Of a DNA stretch of 37,654 nucleotides, positions 9,885-16,332 are shown piece after piece. The first letter of the stretch is position 1. Each line of letters begins with the position of its first letter. The position numbers and the translations under genes are program-made. Origin of the DNA: Cohnella sp. (lineage in GTDB: Bacteria; Bacillota; Bacilli; Paenibacillales; Paenibacillaceae); assembly GCA_028287445.1 (NCBI GenBank), contig JAQBPQ010000162.1, positions 1-37,654 of the forward strand, written 5' to 3'. Under the pieces are notes generated by a model that had not been told where the DNA came from, did no database searches, and worked only from the letters and a program-made list of their open reading frames with translations.

Positions 9885-10766
9885 TCAGGGAGAAGCTTCG
9901 GGCGGCAGCGGCGGTGCGGCCGTCCAACTGCCTGTTTTCCCTTTCAATACTTGAGCGTATCCGAGAAAATCGGTATAAACACCATACACACCCGCTTGCT
10001 TGAGTTTTAAATAAGTGCGGTAATCGTTGATGGTGTGTACATATGTTTTGACGCCGATCTTTTTTAGGGCCTCGTTAAACGATGGTTTGGCACGGTATTC
10101 CACCATGGTGATTGCTTTGATTCTGGGGTTCGAACGGGCGAAGGCGATAACCTGGCCGTTCGTATCCTTGGACTGATACAAGGTGTAAATGTAAGATGGA
10201 AAACGATGGACGGAATCAATATATCCAAGCATCTTCTGGTTGTAAAGCTGAGGTACGATGCGGTCCAACAACGCCGGATCGATACGCTCCGCTTCGTCCG
10301 CCAACAGTCGATACTGCCGTTTGATGGTAGGCTCGTCCGTAAACTTGGTGTCCAGGACATAATATATATCCGGGTGCTGAACCATCAGATCCAACAGATC
10401 CGATAGTTCCATTCCTTGATAACGGTCCAGGATCGGCAGTTGTTTGAATTCTTCCAGCGACAGAGGGTTCCAAGCCTTAAGATCCGCTACGTATGGTTCT
10501 TGATGGAATTCCTCAAACATATTTTTCGCCCAATCGTGCCTGGCGACCAAGTGATCGTCCGTGGTGAGCATCAAATCCGTCTCGAACACGCGGAAACCTC
10601 GTGCGTAACTGGCTTCGAACGCTTCCCGGGAGTTCGTGCGGTCCGCTCCGTTAATGCCACCGAGGGCATGGGCGATCAAGAGATGATCCGACCAGTCTAG
10701 CATTTGACCGGGCGGCGCGCCGGAAAGCGACAGAAGACTCAGGAGCAGCAGCAAAGAAGGGAACAT
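9885..10766 (-). CDS. GDPD-family phosphodiesterase, probably exported
   Basis: Protein of 293 residues. A hydrophobic leader (FPSLLLLLSLLSLSGAPP) suggests a secretion signal. A TIM-barrel GDPD fold is indicated by AHALGGINGADRTNSREAFE, FETDLMLTTDDHLVARHDW and a late HTINDYRTYLKLKQAGVYGVYTD written here in parts: HTINDY, then GVYGVYTD. The usual HRG is AHALGG, a variant found in a distinct subgroup, so substrate (glycerophosphodiester or another phosphodiester) is uncertain. GGGAGG lies 5-6 bases before the ATG. It sits between an aminotransferase gene and leuB, with 61 bases upstream and 178 downstream, and has no known tie to leucine synthesis. Confidence 0.85.
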   Translation of the reverse strand: MFPSLLLLLSLLSLSGAPPGQMLDWSDHLLIAHALGGINGADRTNSREAFEASYARGFRVFETDLMLTTDDHLVARHDWAKNMFEEFHQEPYVADLKAWNPLSLEEFKQLPILDRYQGMELSDLLDLMVQHPDIYYVLDTKFTDEPTIKRQYRLLADEAERIDPALLDRIVPQLYNQKMLGYIDSVHRFPSYIYTLYQSKDTNGQVIAFARSNPRIKAITMVEYRAKPSFNEALKKIGVKTYVHTINDYRTYLKLKQAGVYGVYTDFLGYAQVLKGKTGSWTAAPPLPPEASP

Positions 10767-10827: not shown

Positions 10828-12024
10828 CTAACGAACCAGCACGCTCTCCATCGCTTGCGATAACCGTTTCATGCCGGAAATCGTGTGATGGACGTCGTTA
10901 TGCGTAAAATTGAGCCGCAATGTGTTGGTTTTGGGATTTTCCGCGAAAAAGGTACCGCCAGGTACGAACGCAACGCCGAGACTGACTGCGGTTTTCAGCA
11001 GCTCCGCCGTGTCCACCGCACTGGGCAGCTCCAGCCAGAAGAACATGCCGCCTTTGGGCTCGCGCCAAGAGACGCCCGGCCATTGCTGCTGTTTCAGCAA
11101 TTCGGCCATCTGTCGCATGCGTGCCTCATATTCCTTACGAACCAATGCAATGTGGTCGTCCAAATCGAAATGCTCCAACAACTGGTACAACGTCTGCTGA
11201 TCCAGCGAGCTGGAGTGCAGATCGGCGGCCTGCTTGGCCCGCGCCATGTTGCGGATGAGGTCCGGATCGCCCATCACCCAACCGGTGCGCAGAGCCGGCG
11301 CTACCGTCTTCGAGAACGTGCTCGTATACACGACGCAAGAGCCTTGGGGATGTTGATCCAGCGAAAAAATGGACGGGTATGTGACGGAGTTGTCGCCGAA
11401 CTTGAGTTCCCCGTACGGATCGTCTTCCAAGATCAGCGTATCCGAGCGGCGGCAAAGCTTGAGCACGCCTTTGCGGCGTTCCAAGCTCCAGGCCTGGCCT
11501 GTCGGGTTAGAGAACGTCGGAATGACATACACCATTTTGGGCCGGTATTGCTGCAGCTTGGCGGCCAGATCGTCAAGATCCATGCCGTCTCCGTCCCCGT
11601 TTACAGACACAAGCTTCGCGCCGTAGGAGCCGAACACTTGAAGCGCGGACAAATAGGTCGGTCTTTCCACGAGAATGACGTCGCCGGGATCGATATAGAT
11701 CCGGGTGAGTAAGTCAATCGCTTGCTGGGAGCCTGTCGTCAGCAGCATGTCGTCGGGGGTAACCCGGGCACCCTTCTTGGCCATACGACGGCATATGCTT
11801 TCACGTAGCGGCAAATAGCCTTCCGTAAGTCCGTATTGCAGCGCCCGATTGCCCTGCTCCAATACCCGCCGGAAAGCTTCGCTCACCGCTTGCACCGGAA
11901 AATGCTCCTCTGCCGGTAACCCGCCGGCGAATGAGATGATGGCATCGCCTTGCGTTAACTTCAAAATATCACGAACCGCCGACGAGGAAAACGTCCCCAT
12001 ACGCGCGGAGTATCGATAATTCAT
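10828..12024 (-). CDS. PLP-dependent class I aminotransferase (MocR/LysN-like enzyme)
   Basis: Fold-type I aminotransferase of 398 residues. Motifs: SFAGGLPAEEHFP at the N-terminus, LQYGLTEGYLPLRESI, TTGSQQAIDL, VIPTFSNPTGQAWS, LEDDPYGEL, and STFSKTVAPALRTGWVM containing the PLP-binding lysine (about residue 237). This subgroup includes 2-aminoadipate and aromatic or branched-chain aminotransferases and the enzyme half of MocR regulators; here no GntR-like DNA-binding part is present. Its position just after the leuA remnant suggests a branched-chain role (inference). AGAGGA lies 6 bases before the ATG, which is 22 bases after the old leuA stop. Confidence 0.9.
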   Translation of the reverse strand: MNYRYSARMGTFSSSAVRDILKLTQGDAIISFAGGLPAEEHFPVQAVSEAFRRVLEQGNRALQYGLTEGYLPLRESICRRMAKKGARVTPDDMLLTTGSQQAIDLLTRIYIDPGDVILVERPTYLSALQVFGSYGAKLVSVNGDGDGMDLDDLAAKLQQYRPKMVYVIPTFSNPTGQAWSLERRKGVLKLCRRSDTLILEDDPYGELKFGDNSVTYPSIFSLDQHPQGSCVVYTSTFSKTVAPALRTGWVMGDPDLIRNMARAKQAADLHSSSLDQQTLYQLLEHFDLDDHIALVRKEYEARMRQMAELLKQQQWPGVSWREPKGGMFFWLELPSAVDTAELLKTAVSLGVAFVPGGTFFAENPKTNTLRLNFTHNDVHHTISGMKRLSQAMESVLVR

Positions 12025-12046: not shown

Positions 12047-12364
12047 TTAAATCAGTGTGACGTTGTCGCGCCGGCTGCGTGCCGGGCCTTGCCGCTTGTC
12101 GACAAGCCGGTTGAGCGCATCCACATAAGCGCGGGCCTGGCTTCGAGAATGTCGGTGCTGACTCCCCGGCCTTGAGCCGTCAGATCGCCTTGCTTGAGCA
12201 ACACATGCACTTCGCCCAATGCATCGGTGCCGTCAGTGACGGATTTGATCGTGTAATCGTCGAGCTCCACGGTTTCGCCCGTCAAAGCGTCGATCGCCTG
12301 ATAAATCGCATCCACGGTGTTCGCCGTCGCGGAGCGTCGTGTCGAAAAGATAAATTTTTCGCAT
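12047..12364 (-). pseudogene. leuA: leuA (2-isopropylmalate synthase) remnant: catalytic barrel deleted and frame broken
   Basis: An AGGAGGTG and ATG (12362-12364) start MRKIYLFDTTLRDGE, the standard LeuA N-terminus with the first metal/substrate motif. After codon 15 the sequence jumps, out of frame, into the C-terminal regulatory domain: TVDAIYQAIDALTGE, then DALGEVHVLLKQ and GRGVSTDILEA. From family length (about 510 residues) some 1.2 kb is missing. The start frame stops after 43 codons. A second lesion, one base lost after ILEA, shifts the tail; restoring it gives ARAYVDALNRLVDKR and a stop at 12047-12049. The enzyme should condense 2-oxoisovalerate with acetyl-CoA; this copy cannot. The junction is near 12318-12326. 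A mis-assembly is possible, but two separate lesions favour real decay. Confidence 0.9.
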
Positions 12365-12426
12365 GGCAGGGTATTCCCGCACCTCCTGAAGTTAGTGATT
12401 GAACGCTCAAAATGGGCCTTTTTCGA

Positions 12427-12484: not shown

Positions 12485-12513
12485 AAAACCCCGGCTGTTG
12501 CGGCCGGGGTTTT
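12485..12513 (-). terminator. Terminator after ilvC
   Basis: AAAACCCCGGC (12485-12495) and GCCGGGGTTTT (12503-12513) form a perfect 11-bp hairpin with a 7-base loop. It separates ilvBNC from the leuA region, at least partly. Confidence 0.85.
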
Positions 12514-16000: not shown

Positions 16001-16052
16001 TAAAAAGCCTTCCGTCCCGAACGTCAAGAATGACGTTCTGGGACGAAAGGCT
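16001..16052 (-). terminator. Regulated terminator of the T-box
   Basis: AGCCTTTCGTCCC and GGGACGGAAGGCT form a 13-bp stem with one G-U pair around an inner ACGTCA/TGACGT hairpin, then TTTTTAT on the minus strand. Its 5' side begins next to the T-box sequence, so it competes with the antiterminator. Confidence 0.9.
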
Positions 16053-16332
16053 GTTCCTTCCGCGGTACCACCCGGATTTGCCGCTACTTTACAATGGCGG
16101 CCTCTGAAGGTCCGGCTTCCGCTTATGGGGCGGTCGACACGAACCTCGGGCGCTTTAACGTGCGCCAATCCGATTCCCCTTACTGGCCGCATAGCGGGGG
16201 TTCAGGCGAACAACTCCGAGGAGACCTTGCAGCAGGGATTTCGGCATCGGTCTCAGCGTTCCCGACGCTCTCTGAACAAAAGAGCCCTCTCGCTTATTCC
16301 TCATCATGGCTGTTGTCTTGTTCTCTTGATTA
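16001..16332 (-). ncRNA. T-box leader (leucine type) controlling ilvBNC
   Basis: This untranslated leader senses uncharged tRNA. The T-box sequence GGGTGGTACCGCGG is at 16060-16073. Stem I shows the conserved CAGAGAGC segment, and a GAGACC/GGTCTC helix closing a terminal region with GATGCC and GCTGCAA. Directly after that helix, CTC followed by G (16218-16220) is the likely specifier, a leucine codon; another CTC overlaps the helix. Uncharged tRNA-Leu should stabilise the antiterminator and let RNA polymerase reach ilvB. Boundaries come from the promoter and the terminator. Confidence 0.9.

Follow-up and report, generated by a model that had tools for sequence, protein, structure and literature searches.

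A probable recent leuA pseudogene in the ilv–leu gene row of a Cohnella genome, and repeated loss of the same gene in genomes carrying a distant 2-isopropylmalate synthase type

The operon leuA (hereafter leuA1) of the analysed window, a contig of 37,654 nucleotides (C187) from a Cohnella sp. assembly, is reduced to its two ends. We regard it as probably a recent pseudogene in a lineage near Cohnella pontilimi, tolerated by the cell through other synthases and representing one case of a repeated displacement that is linked to a distant synthase type, here called LeuA4.

From its ATG at 12364 (minus strand), leuA1 keeps 15 codons in frame (MRKIYLFDTTLRDGE) before running out of frame into the C-terminal regulatory domain, so that the first 47 nt are joined to the last ~271 nt of the gene (12364–12047, minus strand) and translation from the ATG would give 43 amino acids, with a stop ending at 12233 (Table 1). 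Six relatives were aligned, their reference genes being 1,551 nt in length; after nt 47 the match resumes at leuA nt 1279 (C. pontilimi, G046), 1280 (Cohnella sp. CFH 77786, here G019, and G003) or 1282 (G010, G008 and G021). Relative to the closest three (C. pontilimi, G019 and G003), the gene is short by 1,232 bp, a length not divisible by three, and one further base is absent at about 12137/12136 compared with all six aligned relatives. The first-pass annotation, made from the letters alone, had described a leuA of two ends with about 1.2 kb missing and a second, single-base loss in the tail, and had proposed alignment with related leuA genes; that alignment bears out each of these points and places the breakpoints at nt 47 and nt 1279–1282.

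Table 1. Features of the leuA1 locus and of the surrounding ilv–leu gene row (window coordinates).
Feature	Coordinates	Strand	Remarks
5′ remnant of leuA1	12318..12364	−	First 47 nt; aligns to leuA nt 1–47 in C. pontilimi, G019, G003
leuA1 deletion junction	12317..12318	−	1,232 bp absent versus closest relatives; sides overlap by 1–2 nt at most
3′ remnant of leuA1, C-terminal regulatory domain to old TAA	12047..12317	−	223/269 columns identical to C. pontilimi leuA
1-bp loss in leuA1 tail	12136..12137	−	Gap versus C. pontilimi and five other aligned relatives
Frame readable from leuA1 ATG, stop included, 43 codons	12233..12364	−
Shine–Dalgarno-like AGGAGGT of leuA1	12381..12387	−	Read from sequence
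Terminator-like hairpin between ilvC and leuA1	12485..12513	−	11-pair stem, −18.9 kcal/mol, z −4.81 (folding)
ilvC, open, 330 aa	12530..13522	−
ilvN, open, 160 aa	13743..14225	−
ilvB, open, 581 aa	14222..15967	−
T-box leader of ilv operon	16036..16316	−	RF00230 E 5.5e-18, 81 bits (gathering score of 93 not reached); GUC (valine) read as the specifier
PLP-dependent aminotransferase, open	10828..12024	−	Best NCBIfam match PdxR-like, below its cut-off
Glycerophosphodiester phosphodiesterase-like protein	9885..10766	−	Weak family match, E 6.2e-5; syntenic in C. pontilimi
leuB, open, 379 aa	8627..9766	−	TIGR00169 506.7 bits versus cut-off 353.2

In profile searches the C-terminal piece corresponded to positions 420–485 of TIGR00973 (66 of 494; 53 bits, E 3.5e-14) and to positions 60–118 of LeuA_dimer PF08502 (59 of 131; E 1.9e-15), matches that lie far beyond chance, while the HMGL-like catalytic barrel (PF00682) had no match in the window. 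The score of 53 bits compares with a TIGR00973 cut-off of 598.7, and no single frame leads from the start to the regulatory domain. Set beside the bacterial type of LeuA (TIGR00973/NF002088, PRK00915), the window thus keeps the start, the first 15 codons and part of the regulatory domain, within the gene order ilvBNC–leuA–aminotransferase–leuB that is common to the relatives, but lacks the whole catalytic barrel and has its frame broken twice, which makes it a pseudogene and not an enzyme. The copy is accordingly predicted to be unable to make 2-isopropylmalate synthase, as the first-pass annotation had concluded. An intact leuA1 was detected in 31 of the 36 genus relatives (20/24 and 11/12 in two sets), including at the same place in G046, G019, G003, G040, G042 and G043. 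When frames of at least 90 amino acids were compared with C. pontilimi over window positions 3–35,200 (the last ~2.4 kb lying outside), four of the 39 listed came out divided over more than one reading frame. Going by position, leuA alone of these four is a real gene; the others lie over the ilvB leader, over the overlap of what we take to be rpmI and infC, and antisense to a further frame.

On the minus strand the T-box leader is followed by ilvB, ilvN, ilvC, the leuA remnant, the aminotransferase, the phosphodiesterase-like gene and leuB. The open frames of ilvB, ilvN, ilvC, the aminotransferase and leuB agree with the earlier description of the neighbours as intact. The hairpin between ilvC and leuA1 was found by eye and then folded, and has a similar counterpart in the corresponding gap of C. 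pontilimi. A pattern scan for promoters around leuA1 found none and did not list the hairpin. A single phosphodiesterase-like gene (9885–10766) was noted in the window, and two tandem matches stand there in C. pontilimi and G003.

The nearest genome on a tree of ilvN and ilvC is that of C. pontilimi CAU 1483 (G046), in a weakly supported pairing (82/37). With G019 as outgroup, the window branch of the leuA1 remnant carries 25 changes, 21 of them at third positions (five non-synonymous, 20 synonymous), and the C. pontilimi branch 2/21; with G003 as outgroup the counts were 4/16 and 3/18 respectively. The same ratio on the window branch was 18/52 for ilvC, 30/61 for the aminotransferase, 15/66 for leuB, 15/97 for ilvB and 10/27 for ilvN, so that the remnant, on small numbers, falls within the range of its intact neighbours and displays no clear relaxation. 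Judging by these substitution patterns, it behaved as a functional gene would over most of the window branch. Because the remnant shows little neutral decay, the loss looks recent when set against the divergence from C. pontilimi; the earlier claim of a recent and easily dated loss is thus retained as to recency, the dating being only relative to that divergence.

The same genome probably still makes leucine, to judge by its gene content. Both leuC and leuD are intact on contig C63 and score over their family cut-offs. A second synthase gene, LeuA2, spans two contig ends, C168 (TIGR00973 positions 1–381) and C172 (312–494), its parts being open to the contig ends; the C168 part alone reached 586.2 against NF002086, over the cut-off of 532, and stayed below the TIGR00973 cut-off. 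PF00682 matches in this genome lie on contigs C168, C263 and C276, the one on C263 being a citramalate synthase (TIGR00977, 753.2 bits), which we take as no backup for the 2-isopropylmalate synthase step. The leader of leuA2 on C168 contains two tandem T-box matches (L207 790–497 and 448–136), the better of which reads CUC (leucine) by alignment, with the specifier read by eye. Two such matches also precede leuA2 in G046, G003, G010, G014 and G019 (the upstream one cut by the locus end in four), and one T-box match each was found in the LeuA3 genomes G009, G017, G020 and G051. A c-di-AMP riboswitch was also detected near the end of contig C168 (L068 12707–12843).

Of a further synthase, LeuA4, the genome contains the initial 35 codons, which lie at one end of contig C96 and stay open up to its edge. 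Family searches missed this fragment; it came to light when the genome was searched at the DNA level specifically with the C. caldifontis locus, and the two are 85% identical across 40 aligned residues, of which five precede the likely start; the G+C content of C96 is 54.3% and that of the window 54.6%. LeuA2 and LeuA4, each cut by contig ends, are known in part, and their whole genes and activity are presumed. Since leuB, leuC, leuD and parts of LeuA2 and LeuA4 are encoded, auxotrophy is not implied. The first-pass annotation had offered leucine auxotrophy or a second leuA as the alternatives: the second leuA exists, whereas auxotrophy is not the likely outcome, and the search that it had suggested for an intact catalytic domain elsewhere in the genome recovered the LeuA2 part on C168 but no whole gene in one piece.

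Loss of leuA1 is not rare in the genus, contrary to what had been implied. The gene is absent from G009, G014 (C. caldifontis), G017 (C. phaseoli), G020 and G051 (C. terricola), that is five of the 36 relatives, and ilvC there adjoins the aminotransferase. Searches of the ilvC–aminotransferase gaps of these five genomes for traces of leuA1 gave short weak matches only (best E 0.018) and no clear remnants. Seven changes in leuA1 were reconstructed on the ilvN and ilvC tree of 41 genomes, of which supported branches force at least six; six fall within Cohnella, and the other is that of Paenibacillus athensensis, in which leuA is gone from the ilvC–aminotransferase slot outside Cohnella. The losses in G017 and G051 could be a single loss with a regain in G021. 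All 36 relatives encode LeuA2 or a third type, LeuA3, and G021 and G050 encode both. In G008, LeuA2 is split in two frames, which may be a sequencing error, since ilvB and ilvC, too, gave partial matches in this draft; the split gene was left out of the LeuA tree, which was built on frames chosen by BLAST. Outside the genus, the operon leuA of Gordonibacillus kamchatkensis (L119 4424–5683) gave a one-frame match over 420 of 516 residues and is possibly another broken copy.

LeuA4 first appeared in the relatives as TIGR00973 matches of 187–210 bits. It shares 25–28% identity with LeuA1 and is of the TIGR00970/NF002991 type (leuA_yeast, PRK03739), which is annotated with the same reaction; the LeuA4 of G020, for instance, scored 712.6 against TIGR00970 (cut-off 697.4) and 811.6 against NF002991 (cut-off 455), and the LeuA4 of all six Cohnella genomes without leuA1 belongs to this type, that of the window's genome as a fragment. 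Within Cohnella, LeuA4 was found in all six genomes without an intact leuA1 (our own by its fragment) and in 2 of the 31 with it (Fisher p 1.2e-5, kinship ignored); with our own genome excluded the counts were 5/5 and 2/31 (p 5.6e-5, kinship ignored). Across 52 genomes it was detected in 13 of 13 without leuA1 versus 3 of 39 with it (p 8.8e-10, or 2.9e-9 without our own genome, kinship again ignored), the genomes with both genes being G007 and G008 of Cohnella and G025. Search effort was uneven in these counts, the 31 keepers having been searched by family model only and our own genome also by targeted DNA search. Of the 16 LeuA4 genes, eight together with that of G028 and our own fragment were read as sequence, and those of G025, G030, G034, G035, G036 and G037 were assigned by the same HMM span and score.

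When kinship was taken into account, five independent pairs could be drawn on supported branches (p 0.0625), and none of them goes the opposite way; with only five pairs, the p value of this test cannot drop below 0.05. Over 200 random pairings the two traits agreed in all five pairs in 179 and in three or four of five in the rest (mean 4.9). LeuA3, tried in the same way as a correlate of leuA1 loss, went the same way in 1.0 of five pairs on average and does not follow the losses. The gene for LeuA4 lies between ilvC and leuB in G027, G066 and G028 (3 of 13 outgroup regions), as if the slot had been taken, and outside the ilv row in the seven Cohnella loci that were read. A LeuA4 tree of 10 rows is weakly resolved, with one outgroup sequence among Cohnella and G009 outside, and hints at transfer without making it firm.

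Several other explanations of the broken gene were weighed. The most serious is an effect of the assembly: an intact leuA1 would also exist in the population, the assembler having followed the deleted path or created the join itself, and the missing 1.2 kb would remain as a short unbinned contig. The source genome is indeed incomplete and fragmented (3,305,553 bases in 278 contigs, 78.07% complete), and the ends of C168 and C172 share a LeuA2 stretch in two versions, 224 of 234 bases (96%) being identical (C172 end, L067 5201–5434; C168 end, L068 2–235), so that either strains are mixed or two nearly identical copies exist. On the strength of these two versions the assembly probably mixes strains, at least at LeuA2, and an intact leuA1 allele could for that reason exist in the population. 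No leuA1 interior was found, however, by PF00682, TIGR00973 and PF08502 searches of this roughly four-fifths complete assembly, from which a short piece could escape as the C96 fragment did. The sides of the join have 1–2 nt in common, presumably too little for a k-mer collapse, the retained tail carries a second lesion, and relatives commonly lose leuA1. We hold an assembly effect to be unlikely. The deletion and the frameshift are present in the assembly, and two lesions, a join without a long repeat and no other broken gene over ~35 kb point to a real lesion. That the loss is real and the cell a leucine auxotroph seems very improbable: leuA1 is the copy inside the ilv–leuB gene row, and LeuA2 and LeuA4 are each seen in part only, but both parts of LeuA2 remain open as far as the contig ends (the larger one scoring above an equivalog cut-off for isopropylmalate synthase), the start of LeuA4 is open, leuC, leuD and leuB exceed their cut-offs, and all five relatives without leuA1 have LeuA2 or LeuA3 in addition to LeuA4. 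We give next to no credence to the idea that the remnant persists because it encodes a short functional product, e.g. a leucine-binding regulatory domain on its own. Starting at a GTG, the C-terminal piece has 87 open codons, and its changes are mostly silent. Such silence, however, is what the period preceding the loss would leave behind; the GTG corresponds to a valine codon inside leuA, the end of the domain is lost to the frameshift, 59 of the 131 LeuA_dimer positions are covered, and no C-terminal-only match stood at a comparable position in another genome among the matches listed.

A regulatory cause was also considered, namely that leuA1 became dispensable once the operon T-box had switched from leucine (CUC) to valine (GUC), the losses following the switch; the corresponding operon of Bacillus subtilis is reported to sense leucine tRNA (PMC12452182). 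GUC was read in the window, in the ilvB leaders of 10 of 10 Cohnella relatives scanned (their T-boxes all below the gathering score) and in P. athensensis, which also lacks leuA1; CUC was read in three Paenibacillus with leuA1 still in place and in Gordonibacillus, where leuA1 matches in part, and the LeuA2 and LeuA3 leaders read CUC in all 10 alignments inspected out of 16 matches. Over 149 genomes of the order, of which 118 carry the CUC pattern, the leuA1 type was nevertheless missing in 6 of 26 genomes with GUC versus 19 of 116 with CUC only (Fisher p 0.40). This count places G060 and G067, which carry both patterns, under GUC, and placing them under CUC gives 4/24 versus 21/118 (p 1.0); 28 genomes gave no leuA1-type match, eight of which were identified by subtraction, the regions of five of these eight showing no leuA1 match (one ends soon after ilvC). 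In genus g30, moreover, GUC occurs in 18 genomes and the leuA1 type is kept in 18 of 18. A specifier switch as the cause of the losses was rejected on the 149-genome count, and we consider it improbable.

Our preferred reading remains a recent pseudogene within a recurrent displacement. In the assembly, a 1,232-bp deletion with almost no end repeat and a 1-bp loss have removed the catalytic barrel, and the cell would tolerate this through LeuA2, which is preceded by leucine T-box leaders, and through LeuA4 of the TIGR00970 type; of both, parts are seen and the whole genes and activity supposed. On the reconstruction above, Cohnella has lost leuA1 about six times, always in genomes with LeuA4, an association observed on few events. 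Displacement is the most likely mechanism: once LeuA4 is present, leuA1 would become redundant and be deleted, while ilvBNC, the aminotransferase and leuB stay. More tentatively, and with somewhat less than even confidence, we suggest that leuA1 and LeuA4 may be near mutually exclusive in Cohnella, and probably across the order, the arrival of LeuA4 tending to precede the deletion of leuA1 with LeuA2 or LeuA3 kept. LeuA2 or LeuA3 alone would not replace LeuA1 despite their spread and leucine T-boxes, and the window would come from the one genome of the set sampled shortly after such an exchange, the old gene being still recognisable.

A search of a limited literature collection returned no paper naming both Cohnella and leuA. 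Two types of α-isopropylmalate synthase with separate origins are reported from different fungal lineages (PMC2904702), a likeness in that two distinct types of one enzyme are distributed across lineages of one group; the fungal case, as described there, concerns large groups, whereas Cohnella presents several losses inside one genus, with one remnant visible. Leptospira likewise has a genome with two leuA genes, and there, as reported (PMC12345160), both copies are intact and its LeuA2 lacks the regulatory domain, whereas in the window the operon copy is dead.

Gene decay is a well-known kind of event, and one broken leuA in a genome with other synthases is nothing unusual; what is of interest is the recurrence. 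In one genus, the committed step of leucine synthesis appears to have been dropped about six times from the same operon, each time with a distant enzyme type present, which may offer a small and clean setting in which to ask why two isozymes for a single step fail to coexist. It also serves as a warning that leucine auxotrophy should not be called from the operon alone.
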